From: Rhizobiaceae bacterium
GTDB lineage: Bacteria > Pseudomonadota > Alphaproteobacteria > Rhizobiales > Rhizobiaceae
Assembly (NCBI GenBank): GCA_004299545.1
Contig: SCRB01000989.1
Coordinates: 1-11,991, forward strand
Direction of reading: 5' to 3'
Length of the DNA: 11,991 nucleotides
The position numbers and the translations under genes are program-made. Positions 721 through 5,933 of the stretch are shown piece by piece. The notes beneath the pieces were generated by a model, which saw nothing but the letters and a program-made list of their open reading frames with translations, was not told where the DNA came from and ran no database searches. How positions within the stretch are numbered: the first letter of the stretch is position 1; every line of letters begins with the position of its first letter.

Positions 721-1755
721 ATGACGATCAACAAGGCAGCCTGCATCGGCGGCGGTGTCATCGGCGCGGGCTGGGTTGCCCGGCTCACCCTGAACGGCGT
801 CGACGTTTCGCTCTTCGATCCCGATCCCGAGGCGTCGCGCAAGATCGGGGAGGTGATGAAGAACGCCCGGCGTGCGTACAAGCAGATGGTGCCTGCCGGC
901 CTGCCGAAGGAAGGAGACGTCACCTATGCGAAGTCCGTCGCGGAAGCCGTCGCAGGCGCGGATTTCATCCAGGAAAGCGTGCCCGAACGCCTTGATGTCA
1001 AGCACAAGGTTCTGGCCGAGATCGACGCGCATGCGGCACCTGATGCCCTCGTCGGCTCCTCGACTTCGGGCATCTTGCCATCCGACATGCAGGTGGCGAT
1101 GAAGCATCCTGAGCGGCTGGTCGTCGCCCACCCCTATAATCCCGTCTACCTGCTGCCGCTGGTGGAGATCGTCGGTGGCAAAGATACGTCGAAAGCCACC
1201 ATCGAGAAGGCGCAGGCGGCCTACGCCTCGATCGGCATGAAGCCGGTCGTCATCCGCAAGGAGATCGAGGCGTTCGTCGGCGACCGGCTGCTTGAAGCCG
1301 CATGGCGGGAATCGCTTTGGCTGATCAAGGACGGCATTTGCAGCGTCGAGGAACTCGACGACATCATGCGCTATGGTTTCGGCCTCAGATGGGCGCAGAT
1401 GGGCATGTTCCAGGTCTATCGCATCGCAGGCGGCGAGGCCGGCATGCGCCACTTCATGGCGCAGTTCGGGCCGTGCCTCAGCTGGCCGTGGACGAAGCTG
1501 ATGGATGTGCCGGAATTCAACGACGAACTGGTGGATCTGATCGCCGGCCAGTCCGATGAACAGTCCGGCCGATGGTCGATCCGGGAGCTTGAAAAGATCC
1601 GCGACGAGAACCTTGTCGCCATGATGGAAGCCCTGTCGAAGACCAACAAGGGCAAGGGCTGGGGCGCCGGCGCCCTTCACAGGGATTATGTGAAGAAGCT
1701 TTCGAAATCCGCGGAGAAGGCCAGGGCGGAAAAGCCAAAGAAAAAGAGCAGGTGA
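721..1755 (+). CDS. lcdH: L-carnitine dehydrogenase (3-hydroxyacyl-CoA dehydrogenase fold)
   Basis: Oxidises L-carnitine to 3-dehydrocarnitine with NAD+ in the cytoplasm, feeding the BKACE encoded just upstream. The protein has 344 residues. An N-terminal Rossmann domain has the GxGxxG motif at G10-G12-G15 and an acidic D33 at the end of the second strand, as expected for NAD rather than NADP. Then come ESVPER (85-90), SSTSG (113-117) and a catalytic-His segment AHPYNPVYLLPLVE (136-149); NPVYLLPLVE is typical of carnitine dehydrogenases and differs from the HFFNP form of fatty-acid enzymes. The helical C-terminal domain follows. The protein ends in a lysine-rich tail (about 325-344). No thioesterase domain is fused to it, although some rhizobial and pseudomonad homologues have one. 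The stop codon overlaps a GTG and lies 14 bases before the ATG of the acyl-CoA dehydrogenase. Confidence 0.9.
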   Translation: MTINKAACIGGGVIGAGWVARLTLNGVDVSLFDPDPEASRKIGEVMKNARRAYKQMVPAGLPKEGDVTYAKSVAEAVAGADFIQESVPERLDVKHKVLAEIDAHAAPDALVGSSTSGILPSDMQVAMKHPERLVVAHPYNPVYLLPLVEIVGGKDTSKATIEKAQAAYASIGMKPVVIRKEIEAFVGDRLLEAAWRESLWLIKDGICSVEELDDIMRYGFGLRWAQMGMFQVYRIAGGEAGMRHFMAQFGPCLSWPWTKLMDVPEFNDELVDLIAGQSDEQSGRWSIRELEKIRDENLVAMMEALSKTNKGKGWGAGALHRDYVKKLSKSAEKARAEKPKKKSR

Positions 1756-1769
1756 AGGATGCTGGGGTC

Positions 1770-2933
1770 ATGAATTTCGGCCTCTCGGAAGAACAGCAGT
1801 TGATCGTGGAGACGACGCGGGCGTTCGTCGAGAACGAGCTTTATCCGCATGAAGCGGAGGTCGAGCGCACGGGACATCTGAGGTCCGACCTGATCAAGGA
1901 ACTTCAGGCGAAGGCGATCGCCGCCGGGCTTTATGCCGCCAACATGCCGGCCGAGGCTGGCGGGGCCGGGCTCGATACGGTCAGCTGGCTGCTCTACGAG
2001 AAAGAACTCGGCCGCGCTAATTACGCGCTGCACTGGACCTGCGTGGCGCGACCTTCCAACATCCTGCTCGCCGGCACGGATGAGCAGAAGGAAAAATATC
2101 TCTATCCCTGTATCCGCGGCGAGAAATGGGATTGCCTTGCCATGACGGAGCCAGGCGCCGGTTCCGATTTGCGCGGCATGAAGGCGACAGCGGTTCAGGA
2201 TGGCGATGACTGGGTGCTGAACGGCACCAAGCATTTCATTTCCCACGCCGACCTCGCGGATTTCGTCATCGTCTTCATGGCGTCAGGCGAGGAAGAGGGG
2301 CCGCGAGGAAAACGCAAAAAGATCACCGCCTTCTTCGTCGACAAGGGAACGCCGGGCTTCGCCGTGCGCGACGGCTATCGCAACGTCTCGCATCGCGGTT
2401 ACACCAATTCCATCCTCGAGTTCGATGACGTACGTCTCCCTGCTTCGCAGGTTTTGGGAGACCCGCATCGGGGTTTCGAAGTAGCGAATTCCTGGCTTGG
2501 CGCGACGAGGCTTCAGGTCGCCGCGACCTGCCTTGGCCGGGCGGAAAGGGCGCTGGCGCATGCGATCGACTACGCCGCGACGCGCGAGCAGTTCGGCCAG
2601 AAGATCAGCAAATTCCAAGGCGTATCGTTCAAGCTGGCCGACATGGCGACCGAATTGAAGGCTGCCAATCTCCTGACCTTCGAGGCAGGGTGGAAAGTCG
2701 ATCAGGGCACCATCACTGACGAGGACATGGCGATGGCCAAGCTCAAGGCGACGGAGGTTCTCGCCTTCATCGCCGATGAGGCGATCCAGATCCATGGCGG
2801 CATGGGGTTGATGGACGATCTGCCGCTTGAGCGCATCTGGCGCGATGCGCGCGTCGAACGTATCTGGGAAGGCACGAGCGAAATCCAGCGGCATATCATC
2901 AGCCGTGCGCTGCTGCGGGCGGTGGGGGGATGA
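1770..2933 (+). CDS. Acyl-CoA dehydrogenase, probably gamma-butyrobetainyl-CoA/crotonobetainyl-CoA type
   Basis: FAD-dependent alpha,beta-dehydrogenation of an acyl-CoA. In this cluster the likely step is gamma-butyrobetainyl-CoA to crotonobetainyl-CoA, with electrons passed to ETF. From the ATG at 1770 the protein has 387 residues, a normal length. The frame also allows a GTG at 1752 (six extra residues), but MNFGLSEEQ is the usual beginning of this family, so the ATG is preferred. Motifs: AMTEPGAGSD (124-133, flavin/substrate loop), TREQFGQKI (271-279), QIHGGMG (340-346) and RDARVERIWEGTSEIQ (358-373), where E367 is the expected catalytic base. The stop TGA overlaps the start of the next gene as ATGA. 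CaiA would be the E. coli functional counterpart, but substrate is inferred from the neighbours. Confidence 0.88.
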   Translation: MNFGLSEEQQLIVETTRAFVENELYPHEAEVERTGHLRSDLIKELQAKAIAAGLYAANMPAEAGGAGLDTVSWLLYEKELGRANYALHWTCVARPSNILLAGTDEQKEKYLYPCIRGEKWDCLAMTEPGAGSDLRGMKATAVQDGDDWVLNGTKHFISHADLADFVIVFMASGEEEGPRGKRKKITAFFVDKGTPGFAVRDGYRNVSHRGYTNSILEFDDVRLPASQVLGDPHRGFEVANSWLGATRLQVAATCLGRAERALAHAIDYAATREQFGQKISKFQGVSFKLADMATELKAANLLTFEAGWKVDQGTITDEDMAMAKLKATEVLAFIADEAIQIHGGMGLMDDLPLERIWRDARVERIWEGTSEIQRHIISRALLRAVGG

Positions 2934-5140
2934 GGTGTTCAGGTCAAGATGAAATGCGGGCGCTCTACGGCGTTTTTGGGAGTGGCGCCTTGCATAGGCT
3001 CGACCGCCTGCTGCGCCCGAGGTCGATCGCTGTTATCGGCGGCGGCGCTTTTGCGGCCAATGTTGTCGCGCAATCGCACAAGATGGGATTCGACGGCGCT
3101 GTCTGGCCCGTCCATTCGTCGAAGGATGAAATCGCCGGCGCTCGGGCTTTCCGCTCCGTTGCGGACCTTCCCGGCGCACCCGACGCCAGCTTCGTCGGAG
3201 TCAACCGATATGCCAGCGTCGAAATCGTCGGATCGTTGCGGGAACGGAACGCCGGAGGTGCGGTCTGTTTCGCGGCTGGCTTCAAGGAGACGGAGCACTA
3301 CGATTCCGATGGCGCGCGACTTCAGGATGAACTTGTGCGGGCGGCCGGCGAGATGCCGATCATCGGGCCGAACTGCTACGGGCTGATCAACTATGCGGAC
3401 GGGGCGCTGCTTTGGCCCGACCAGCATGGCGGCCGCCGGTTGGAGCCCGACCAGCGTGGCGCGGCAATCATCACGCAATCCTCCAACATCGCCATCAACC
3501 TGACCATGCAGAAGCGCGGCCTGCCCATCGCCTTTCTGATGACGGCCGGCAACCAGGCGCAGACAGGCCTGTCCGAAATGGCGTGCGGGCTGATCGAGGA
3601 CGAGCGTGTGTCCGTGCTTGGACTTCATATCGAGGGCTTCGATTCGGTCGCCGGTTTCGAGCATCTCGCGCGTCGCGCGCGCGAACTGAAAAAGCCGGTC
3701 GTGGCGATGAAGGTCGGCCGGTCCGAGCAGGCGCGCGCCGCGACGATTTCGCATACGGCTTCACTGGCCGGCTCGCATGCGGCGTCGGATGCCTTCCTGA
3801 GCCGGCTCGGCATTGCGCGCGTCGAGACGATCCCCTCTTTCCTCGAGGCGCTGAAACTGCTGCACGTCACCGGCCCGCTTGCCGGCCGCCGGCTTTCCTC
3901 GATGAGTTGCTCGGGTGGCGAGGCGTCGGTGATGGCGGACAGCGCGGAAGGGCGGAGGATTTATTTCCCTCCCATTACCGACGCTCACAAGGCGCGTGTT
4001 CAGGAGACGCTGGGGCCGCTTGTGGCCGTTGCCAACCCGCTCGACTACAATACGTTCATCTGGGGAAATGAGCCGGCCTTGACTGCCGCTTTCACGGCGA
4101 TGGCGTCCGGAGGCTTCGATCTCAATTTTCTGGTGCTCGATTTTCCGCGCGGCGACCGCTGCTCCGATGAATCGTGGTGGCCGACGGTGCGCGCCTTCGA
4201 GGCGGCGCAGAAGGCCAACGGATCGAAGGGCGCGGTCGTCGCCTCGCTTGCCGAAAACCTGTCGGAAGACCATGCGATCGACCTTATGGAACGCGGTGTC
4301 GCGCCGCTCAACGGCATTGCCGAGGCGTTCGATGCAGCGGAAGCGGCGGCGTTTGTCGGCGAGGCGTGGCAACGCCCTTCCTCGCCCCCCGTCGGGGGGA
4401 GAGGTGCCGAGCGTAGCGAGGCGGAGAGGGGGACTTTATCTGTTGCCTGCCCCCCGCTCCGTCCCGGCTTCGCCGGTCCACCTCTCCCCCCGATGGGGGG
4501 CGAGGAAGGGAACCAACCAGACGAAGCTATCGCCAAATCGCTTCTCACAGCGGCGGGACTCTGCGTGCCAGCGGGACGGCGAGCCCTCACCCCGGACGAA
4601 GCTGTTGCCGTCGCCGGAGACCTCGGCTTTCCGGTAGCGCTCAAAGTCCTCGGCATCGCGCATAAATCGGAACATGGCGCGGTTCGGCTGAATTTGAAGG
4701 ATGCTGGCGCGGTTCGGGCGGCGGCGGACGATCTGCTGCGGCTCGGCACCGGCCTCTATGTCGAGCGTATGATCGAAGGCGGCGTTGCCGAACTGATCGT
4801 CGGCGTCACGCGTGACCCGCTCTTCGGCCCGGTCATGACGATCGGTTCCGGCGGTGTGCTGGTGGAGCTTCTGAAGGACAGTGCTACGCTGCTCTTGCCA
4901 ACGACGTGCGAGGCAATCGAGGCAGCGTTGCGGTCGCTCAGGCTCTTTGCGCTGCTGGACGGTTATCGCGGGCGGCCGCAAGCCGATTTGCAAACGGCGA
5001 TCGACGCGATCGAAGGAATCGCCCGTTTCGCCCTCGAACATGCGGGCGCGATCGAAGAACTCGACGTCAATCCGCTGATCGTCTGCGAAAAAGGGAAGGG
5101 CGCCTGGATCGCCGATGCGCTGCTGGTGGTAGGACAATGA
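2930..5140 (+). CDS. NDP-forming acyl-CoA ligase (acetyl-CoA synthetase-like) carrying an in-frame palindromic insert
   Basis: Forms an acyl-CoA from free acid, CoA and ATP through a phospho-histidine; here it probably activates carnitine, crotonobetaine or gamma-butyrobetaine. It replaces the AMP-forming CaiC of enterobacteria. The 736 residues contain a CoA-binding Rossmann domain (about 24-150; RPRSIAVIGGG, IGPNCYG), ligase-CoA domains (about 175-475) with the catalytic-His motif ISHTASLAGS (273-282, H275), and a C-terminal ATP-grasp part (about 530-736; GFPVALKV at 566-573, ELDVNPL at 710-716). Residues 482-527 are encoded by a 136-bp palindromic element and form a Pro/Gly/Arg-rich linker just before the ATP-grasp part. 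Without it the length is about 690, close to the family norm. The ATG at 2930 overlaps the preceding stop; a second in-frame ATG at 2954 is possible. The specific substrate is inference. Confidence 0.87.
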   Translation: MRCSGQDEMRALYGVFGSGALHRLDRLLRPRSIAVIGGGAFAANVVAQSHKMGFDGAVWPVHSSKDEIAGARAFRSVADLPGAPDASFVGVNRYASVEIVGSLRERNAGGAVCFAAGFKETEHYDSDGARLQDELVRAAGEMPIIGPNCYGLINYADGALLWPDQHGGRRLEPDQRGAAIITQSSNIAINLTMQKRGLPIAFLMTAGNQAQTGLSEMACGLIEDERVSVLGLHIEGFDSVAGFEHLARRARELKKPVVAMKVGRSEQARAATISHTASLAGSHAASDAFLSRLGIARVETIPSFLEALKLLHVTGPLAGRRLSSMSCSGGEASVMADSAEGRRIYFPPITDAHKARVQETLGPLVAVANPLDYNTFIWGNEPALTAAFTAMASGGFDLNFLVLDFPRGDRCSDESWWPTVRAFEAAQKANGSKGAVVASLAENLSEDHAIDLMERGVAPLNGIAEAFDAAEAAAFVGEAWQRPSSPPVGGRGAERSEAERGTLSVACPPLRPGFAGPPLPPMGGEEGNQPDEAIAKSLLTAAGLCVPAGRRALTPDEAVAVAGDLGFPVALKVLGIAHKSEHGAVRLNLKDAGAVRAAADDLLRLGTGLYVERMIEGGVAELIVGVTRDPLFGPVMTIGSGGVLVELLKDSATLLLPTTCEAIEAALRSLRLFALLDGYRGRPQADLQTAIDAIEGIARFALEHAGAIEELDVNPLIVCEKGKGAWIADALLVVGQ
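4375..4510. repeat. Palindromic repeat element inserted in frame within the acyl-CoA ligase gene
   Basis: The outer arms 4375-4406 and 4479-4510 are inverted copies of each other over 32 bases with a single mismatch. Each arm is itself a hairpin: a C6 run and a G6 run around a 3-base centre (4385-4399 and 4486-4500). A second inner pair, 4422-4432 and 4451-4461, matches at 10 of 11 positions around an 18-base loop. The whole resembles the C/G-rich intergenic palindromic elements that are dispersed in rhizobial genomes, although the family could not be named from sequence alone. It carries no stop codon in the ligase frame, so the gene stays open. Confidence 0.88.
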
Positions 5141-5150
5141 CGGAGAATTC

Positions 5151-5933
5151 ATGACCGAAATCATCACGACCCGCCGTGAAGGCAGCATCCTCGAAGTCAC
5201 GCTCGACCGGCCGAAGGCGAACGCCATCGATCTCGCCACGTCGCGGCTGATGGGCACGGCCTTCCAAGCCTTCCGCGACGATCCTGACCTGCGCGTCGCC
5301 ATTGTGAAGACGGCTGGCGACAAATTCTTCTCCGCCGGCTGGGACTTGAAGGCCGCCGCGTCGGGCGATGCGGTCGATGGCGATTACGGCGTCGGCGGTT
5401 TCGGCGGATTGCAGGAGCTTCGCGACATGAACAAGCCGATCATCGCCTGCGTCAACGGCATGGCGGTCGGCGGCGGCTTCGAATTGGCGCTGTCCTGCGA
5501 CCTGATCTACGCATCGGAGCACTCGTCCTTCGCGCTGCCCGAAATCCGTGCCGGCACGCTGGCCGACGCGGCGACGGTGAAATTGCCGAAGCGTATTCCC
5601 TATCACGTCGCCATGGACCTGTTGTTCACCGGCCGCTGGATGGATGTTCGGGAAGCGCATCGCTGGGGCCTGGTCAACGAAGTGCTGCCGGCCGACAAAC
5701 TGGAAGAGCGGGTCTGGGACGTGGCGCGGTTACTCGCCGGCGGCCCGCCGTTGGTCTTTGCGGCCATCAAGGAGGTGGCGCGCGAGGCGGAGTCCATGAA
5801 TTTCCAGGAGGCGATGAACTGGATCACCAAGCGCAAGTTCCGCACGGTGGACACGCTCTACGCTTCGGAGGACAATCGTGACGGATTCCGCGCCTTCGCC
5901 GAGAAGCGTGACCCGGTGTGGAAGGGAAGGTAG
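5151..5933 (+). CDS. caiD: Carnitinyl-CoA dehydratase / crotonobetainyl-CoA hydratase (CaiD-like)
   Basis: Crotonase-fold enzyme that reversibly adds water to crotonobetainyl-CoA to give L-carnitinyl-CoA. The 260 residues match the length of E. coli CaiD, and several CaiD stretches are recognisable: GSILEVTLDRPKANAID (11-27), FFSAGWDLKAAA (59-70, oxyanion-hole region), GGGFELALSCD (107-117) and the C-terminal FAEKRDPVWKGR (249-260). The two catalytic glutamates of active crotonases are present, E111 in GGFEL and E131 in LPEIRAG. The gene starts 10 bases after the ligase stop, with GGAG shortly upstream of the ATG. Of all genes in the operon, this one ties the cluster most directly to carnitine. 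A related short-chain enoyl-CoA hydratase is the alternative but less likely. Confidence 0.88.
   Translation: MTEIITTRREGSILEVTLDRPKANAIDLATSRLMGTAFQAFRDDPDLRVAIVKTAGDKFFSAGWDLKAAASGDAVDGDYGVGGFGGLQELRDMNKPIIACVNGMAVGGGFELALSCDLIYASEHSSFALPEIRAGTLADAATVKLPKRIPYHVAMDLLFTGRWMDVREAHRWGLVNEVLPADKLEERVWDVARLLAGGPPLVFAAIKEVAREAESMNFQEAMNWITKRKFRTVDTLYASEDNRDGFRAFAEKRDPVWKGR

Follow-up and report, generated by a model that had tools for sequence, protein, structure and literature searches.

An in-frame palindromic element at the interdomain linker of an ADP-forming acyl-CoA ligase in Mesorhizobium-like bacteria

Introduction

Rhizobia carry short intergenic palindromic mosaic elements known as RIME1 and RIME2. 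The locus described here raises the question of how a short rhizobial palindrome, likewise intergenic in most of its copies and likened to RIME by description, not by sequence, comes to lie within the open reading frame of a conserved enzyme. Protein-coding palindromes have been described for Rickettsia, Wolbachia and some REP-rich genomes (PMC2229807, PMC10969869, PMC3767692, PMC3733652). The window, i.e. the whole stretch of DNA that was analysed (11,991 nucleotides of contig SCRB01000989.1 of a Rhizobiaceae bacterium), holds such a palindrome in an acyl-CoA ligase gene, and a preliminary description made from the sequence had read it as a new linker added by one clean insertion and compared it to the Rickettsia palindromic elements (RPEs). 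Here we report that the element very probably inserted in or before the ancestor of the genus at the junction of the alpha- and beta-subunit-like parts of the ligase, is probably translated as a disordered linker and forms part of a hotspot at which such elements turn over.

The palindrome and its host gene

The features referred to throughout are the following:
2948..5140 (alternative ATG 2930), plus strand: gene of the ADP-forming acyl-CoA ligase, holding the element in frame (ORF, Pfam, structure matches)
3020..4369, plus strand: alpha-subunit-like part with the CoA-binding and Succ_CoA_lig domains, ending at the conserved Trp that precedes the linker (Pfam, PDB, dN/dS 0.08-0.18)
4367..4522, plus strand: interdomain linker, 52 codons (orthologue alignment, AlphaFold pLDDT)
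4375..4510, no strand: palindromic element made of two inverted half units
4375..4406, plus strand: left arm, C/G-run hairpin (inverted-repeat search)
4407..4421, plus strand: left variable GC hairpin, unlike between species (sequence)
4464..4476, plus strand: right variable GC hairpin (sequence)
4479..4510, minus strand: right arm, C/G-run hairpin, inverted (inverted-repeat search)
4517..5131, plus strand: beta-subunit-like part, ATP-grasp_5 (Pfam, PDB 4xyl_B and 1wr2_A, dN/dS 0.17-0.21)
5151..5933, plus strand: downstream enoyl-CoA hydratase gene (CaiD-like), intact (ORF, Pfam)

The palindrome is as first located: its two 32-nt arms (4375-4406 and 4479-4510) are complementary at 31/32 positions (97%) and enclose 72 nt. 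The element measures 136 bp, a length not divisible by three, which contradicts the initial assertion that it must add a multiple of three bases. The arms constitute terminal inverted repeats, a trait of MITEs, and both the size of the palindrome (within ~100-150 bp) and the presence of more copies in the genome are traits of RPEs. By eye, the copies resolve into two inverted half units with three pieces each: a hairpin formed by a C run and a G run, a GC hairpin that varies, and a tail rich in G. A search of the element against Rfam returned sub-threshold microRNA models only.

The frame 2948-5140 is stop-free and carries CoA_binding_2, Succ_CoA_lig and ATP-grasp_5 domains (Pfam); this domain set and the fold of solved ACDs both identify the product as an ADP-forming acyl-CoA ligase. 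Foldseek matched DddX, PatZ and ADP-forming synthetases, and a PDB structure search retrieved the same enzyme family and nothing else. The neighbouring genes on the same strand encode a BKACE protein, a 3-hydroxyacyl-CoA dehydrogenase, an acyl-CoA dehydrogenase and an enoyl-CoA hydratase, a neighbourhood that we take to suit gamma-butyrobetaine/carnitine breakdown, in which the ligase probably takes part.

The domain-boundary position given in the preliminary description is confirmed by Pfam and by a solved homologue in which the two halves are separate chains. PDB 4xyl_A, the alpha subunit of an archaeal homologue, aligns with residues 17-368 of the query and the alpha-like chain 2csu_A with residues 18-453, and the matches to the beta subunit 4xyl_B and to 1wr2_A begin at residues 527-528; the element sits between the two sets of matches, at the alpha/beta border of 4xyl. 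Single-chain relatives have also been solved (8wzu, 7cm9). An AlphaFold model built with 44 sequences reaches a mean pLDDT of 83.7, with residues 485-520 below 50, ten-residue blocks directly outside 481-520 at 84 and higher values further out; the linker, rich in Pro, Gly, Arg and Glu, is thus predicted to be disordered between confidently modelled domains.

Palindrome-free relatives have linkers of 23-32 residues, most often 25, and the window ligase has 52, which amounts to some 27 extra residues instead of the 46 first proposed. The insertion replaced part of the original linker and did not simply add 136 bp. The orthologue alignment, which lacks a near empty site, demonstrates neither the exact gap at 4375-4510 nor the target duplication that had been predicted at the ligase site. 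The residues of palindrome-free orthologues differ from those of the window linker; the same residues in such orthologues would have counted against a palindromic origin.

Age of the insertion and selection on the ligase

The linker is older than the word 'new' in the preliminary description implies. In 4/4 species of the genus examined an insert lies at the identical point of the ligase, in frame, as a palindrome or its remnant. Five loci with short translations were left out of this comparison: L019, L020, L023 and L039, which are minus-strand matches, and L022, whose match contains a TAA. Three of these copies are full palindromes with like arms and different centres, and the fourth (G002, L013:2890-3132) is a remnant that has lost the partner arm and retains a decayed left arm, with a second, different palindrome nested behind it. 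All three full copies belong to one type and begin at an identical base relative to the flanking codons; the decayed arm of G002 is of the same type and starts at the same base. Among three species the flanks have a dS of 0.6-1.2, and dN/dS is 0.08-0.18 upstream of the insert and 0.17-0.21 downstream of it; both flanks are under purifying selection. The element thereby shares with RPEs a stop-free, in-frame position inside a conserved gene that has element-free orthologues.

In the three species that have a full palindrome, the inner 26 nt of the arms differ by 0-2 positions from one species to another and are complementary at 25/26 positions in each, while 45-60% of synonymous sites differ among the same species. 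Since the arms are near-identical despite this divergence, the palindrome appears to have been renewed or corrected, and we infer that it is held near-perfect either by intrastrand copy correction between the two arms or by being copied anew from other elements. The same near-identity, along with the spacers and centres that differ between species and the entry of other element types near the same point of the linker, would also be expected if each species had received its own recent insertion at a preferred target instead of inheriting a single old one. We regard this main alternative as possible but unlikely: one type with one start base in three species, and a decayed arm of that type at that base in a fourth, argue for descent, and no constant target was found in the flanks of 32 elements of a sister type (see below).

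The ligase linker as an insertion hotspot

The ligases of related bacteria reveal that elements of several types have repeatedly occupied this site, a hotspot that the preliminary description missed. Named ligase loci were taken from the best 80 of 410 relatives, and 80/80 have a ligase frame of >600 codons, 12 of them after re-anchoring. With ten linker sequences as queries and self-matches included, element sequence was found in the linker of 17/80 loci, some as remnants and two of them congeners. Elsewhere in these loci (631 kb, called 94% coding) the elements occupy 10 ligase-gene ends, 39 intergenic places and no other gene's interior; two rows classed as elsewhere in the ligase ('ligase_else') were placed behind its conserved core by reading their coordinates. 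The reverse search, with nine intergenic copies as queries, yielded eight linker matches, one at the C-terminal tail, none in any other part of the ligase interior and three outside. Open ligase frames containing element sequence include those of M. albiziae DSM 21822, M. camelthorni, Pseudaminobacter soli and M. composti.

Sorted by hand according to sequence, the linker elements fall into six types, and those other than the type in the window enter near its insertion point. A ligase tree of 44 rows calculated without the linker columns requires at least 11 changes of presence or absence and at least 15 changes of type; it is a quick tree in which 16/41 inner branches are weak and long-branch warnings were raised. 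Its rows derive from 90 by removal of two duplicate congeners and by retention of eight of the 52 rows (52/90) that share a palindrome-free 25-residue linker of one kind, and these eight form one clade. Turnover is also evident between close relatives: ligase cores 98.3% identical (P0118/P0102) or 94.6% identical (L087/L076) carry two element types, those of the former pair judged by peptide, and in a pair with 95.7% identical cores (P0031/P0022) one has no element and the other has one.

The succession of different palindromes at one site could mean that the hairpin persists because it regulates at the RNA or DNA level, by attenuation, through mRNA stability or by slowing translation between the domains, with the peptide incidental. 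The predicted RNA fold of 4370-4515 is indeed very strong (-118.1 kcal/mol, z -11.95, equalled in 0/200 shuffles) and the arms are more conserved than flanking synonymous sites. The hairpin is dispensable, however, because 52/90 rows have the palindrome-free linker, and no terminator-like site was detected within 4200-5400, which renders a regulatory role improbable. The idea that the hairpin lowers expression of the downstream caiD and hydrolase genes likewise finds no support, given the lack of a terminator-like site in this interval and the intact downstream genes.

We favour instead the tolerance of insertions at this joint. A short repeated palindrome of a Mesorhizobium-like lineage would have entered the alpha/beta junction of the fused ligase in the ancestor of the genus or earlier, and would be translated as a disordered linker. 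Almost any in-frame, stop-free filler may be tolerated there, because the two halves fold independently and form distinct subunits in the archaeal homologue, and frame-breaking versions would be removed by purifying selection on the enzyme. Tolerance of filler together with purging of frame-breakers would make the linker a landing place for several element types, and gain, trimming, nesting and exchange of elements have taken place there repeatedly.

Two observations concern the ends of the ligase gene. A second palindrome often forms or overlaps its C-terminal tail (nine stretches in eight loci):
L041:5156-5201, ligase C-tail element
L044:5161-5301, ligase C-tail element
L057:5131-5267, ligase C-tail element
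L060:5138-5279, ligase C-tail element
L061:2991-3121, ligase C-tail element
L070:5176-5296, ligase C-tail element
L076:5119-5277, ligase C-tail element
L087:5173-5201 and 5303-5365, ligase C-tail elements
In a metagenome-assembled genome (L111:2944-3000) an element supplies N-terminal residues of the ligase, provided that the start codon is rightly called.

Copies across genomes

The genome of the window gave 18 matching rows, the window copy on both strands included, which merge into 13 further places; eight of these were inspected and 8/8 were called intergenic. Three congeners gave at least 82, 82 and 87 rows, 40 candidates per genome being scored, and one palindrome may yield rows on both strands. 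The search with the arm sequence therefore returned what the preliminary description had anticipated, namely other copies, mostly intergenic.

Three surveys placed copies relative to genes. The genus survey (40 stretches, 30 from G002 and 10 of the best from G003, ligase copies left out) comprised 41 copies, of which 39 are intergenic, one is at the C-terminal end of a gene and one is inside a gene. DNA copies were also surveyed in the genomes behind L087 and L076, because a peptide search sees one frame only. In the L087 genome (39 stretches, 40 of 109 candidates scored) nine of 41 places are inside called genes, 31 are intergenic and one overlaps a gene end. The L076 genome (34 stretches, 40 of 92 candidates scored, six contig-end places left out) has 35 places, 31 intergenic and four in genes. 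Pooled, the 117 places are made up of 101 intergenic ones, two gene ends and 14 within genes, the last representing 12 different genes. One fetched stretch, L175, held no copy at the cut-off. Gene calls, in the named ligase loci and the window's own genome too, stem from a codon model trained on the genes of the window and three orthologues, not from annotation, and a copy that breaks a gene would be classed as intergenic or end and never as inside; the in-frame rate among in-gene copies is for this reason partly a matter of construction.

These copies bear on two further explanations. That the locus is an assembly chimera or a pseudogene might be suspected from the fragmented source assembly (4.59 Mb, 1067 contigs, 85% complete), and is refuted by the agreement of independent genomes: the one-contig genome G002 has the same site and an open frame (remnant plus second element), several named strain genomes have element sequence in open ligase frames, and dN/dS is low on both flanks. 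That a plain low-complexity Pro/Gly-rich linker is palindromic by chance or convergent codon use would suit its composition and predicted disorder, and is refuted by the dozens of intergenic copies that match its half units; the element's codons, moreover, score non-coding in 3/3 forward frames and the flanks coding, under a model trained on the window's genes with these flanks among them.

Six contigs of G042, the genome behind L076 (C45, C54, C15, C47, C17 and C24), start in or within ~100 bases of a copy, and because several contigs begin in this manner the repeats probably break assemblies.

Elements in frame inside other genes

The expectation of mostly intergenic copies has stood (101/117); what the preliminary description did not foresee is that many unrelated genes hold related elements in frame. 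The peptide of the window element retrieved ligases only (8/26 candidates). Outside ligases, the sole in-gene copy of its type that was found is in an ImuB-like gene, and one other copy forms a C-terminal end. In the ImuB-like gene (L170:1927-2095, gene 1588-3300, minus strand), which has an IMS domain and a DUF6504 match just below the Pfam cut-off, palindromes lie in frame before the C-terminal part in two species of the genus; the alignment is continuous through the element in these two and has a gap in the others listed.

The sister type is more widely distributed. Its peptide, taken from the L076 ligase and searched in that reading frame only with E up to 10, is carried by 41/78 candidates, four of them ligases and the rest from nine other families. 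Six of these families match at E 1e-3 or better, with 18 GlyS beta chains (three sites), six dehydrogenase E2 proteins, five isoleucyl-tRNA synthetases, two UvrD, two PolA and one molybdopterin oxidoreductase. Weaker matches are one UvrB (E 0.14), one CobN (E 0.7) and one HAD protein (E 1.6). That unrelated proteins share one peptide read in one frame, another trait of RPEs, thus holds for the sister type; the peptide of the window type was found in ligases only.

The in-gene hosts in the L087 genome (Pfam) are PolA, a CobG-like protein, CobN (near its end), an ATP-dependent DNA ligase, an amine oxidase, Lhr, XdhC, a PGA_cap protein and E2; those in the L076 genome are aconitase X, PGA_cap, E2 and the ligase, Pfam having been run there for aconitase X and E2. 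The E2 and PGA_cap insertions are common to both genomes. Judged by Pfam limits, 9/12 host genes have their copy in an interdomain stretch or after the final domain; in the DNA ligase, the amine oxidase and PGA_cap it falls inside a domain match. Of seven other genomes, six yielded an orthologue of the DNA ligase, and 6/6 have a short empty loop at the site.

The first CCTCCCC of the in-gene copies has its T at codon position 1 in 7/8 cases and at position 3 in one (CobN left out); of the four in-gene rows of the L076 survey, three are in phase 1 and the ligase row, represented by its right half only, is in phase 3. In 54 readings of intergenic copies on both strands, 29 are open with this T at position 1, 12 at position 2 and 30 at position 3. 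Stop codons can explain why phase 2 is unseen in genes, and the excess of phase 1 over phase 3 is suggestive, with P ~0.01 by a hand estimate from readings that are not independent. It is conceivable, if rather doubtful, that the elements are portable translatable linkers, with one stop-free phase encoding a soluble Pro/Gly-rich spacer, and spread through multi-domain proteins as interdomain hinges; element-for-element swapping at permissive joints would then amount to a natural linker-exchange system in Mesorhizobium-like bacteria. What is proposed for the ligase probably also takes place in further proteins of these bacteria, most of which consist of several domains.

Replication and repair genes recur as hosts, namely PolA, DNA ligase, Lhr, ImuB-like, UvrD and UvrB (L201, L208, L218, L170, P0138, P0157), and passages of PMC3733652 report such genes as hosts of REPs in other bacteria.

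Movement and relation to known elements

A search for the Y1/RAYT transposase (PF01797) was positive in 0/5 genomes (one is 85% complete) and in 5/14 control genomes; this enzyme was rejected as the mover. Beside 32 paired sister-type elements there is no constant target duplication: the adjoining direct repeat measures 0, 1, 2, 3 and 4 bases in 18, 9, 3, 1 and 1 elements, respectively. A TA target was discarded as well, T...A flanks being present in just 6/32. Movement would presumably proceed by transposition or by copying.

The comparison with RPEs made at the outset is supported by in-frame palindromes whose copies elsewhere are mostly intergenic. RPEs, in the passages of PMC2229807, PMC10969869 and PMC3767692 that treat them, are palindromes found in frame in unrelated conserved genes and also between genes, with insertion sites shared by orthologues and solvent-exposed positions, and PMC3767692 already considers hotspots for them. 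Like RPEs and the Wolbachia palindromic elements as described in those passages, ours are ~100-150 bp long and occur both intergenically and in frame in unrelated genes. Unlike RPEs, their hosts include named Mesorhizobium and Pseudaminobacter strains and several types replace each other at one linker; the likeness is one of description, not of sequence. We propose that the elements work like RPEs, by analogy, which does not imply RPE membership by descent.

Intragenic REPs of the GTAG/CGTC families are reported in PMC3733652 from PolA, UvrD, DNA ligase and tRNA-synthetase genes, where they keep the reading frame. Its authors propose flexible linkers or loops as sites and report different REPs at about one recB site in two Xanthomonas. 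The elements described here are similar in forming inverted pairs of short hairpin units and in their in-frame presence in PolA, DNA ligase, UvrD and tRNA synthetases. They differ in their half units of ~35-58 nt, in having no constant tag (GTAG in 4/32 and CGTC in 0/32 paired sister-type elements, left end examined) and in the absence of Y1/RAYT from the five genomes. PMC3733652 treats REP families of Bradyrhizobium and other rhizobia, and its main text does not mention Mesorhizobium. ERIC and RU elements are also small, non-autonomous and able to add in-frame peptides (Delihas 2007, PMC2759123; PMC2229807), but by description belong to a different element family and host, and the passages of PMC2229807 contain no such single hotspot.

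The kind of element is therefore already known from RPEs and intragenic REPs, and its occurrence in Mesorhizobium-like bacteria is a variant of it. No report of protein-coding palindromes in these bacteria was present among the matches listed (open-licence literature, titles and abstract starts), and in view of this scope we make no claim of priority.

If our reading is correct, the elements are a concrete source of new interdomain linkers. With in-gene elements at 9/41 surveyed places of one genome, among named strains, and with differences in the presence or type of element between close relatives, the entry of selfish palindromes into proteins and its effect on function become directly testable by genetics. 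Alignments of the ligase, GlyS, PolA and similar proteins from this group should be treated with caution, as they hold repeat-derived residues. In the plasmid collection the element has a single 38-nt match, in Aminobacter.
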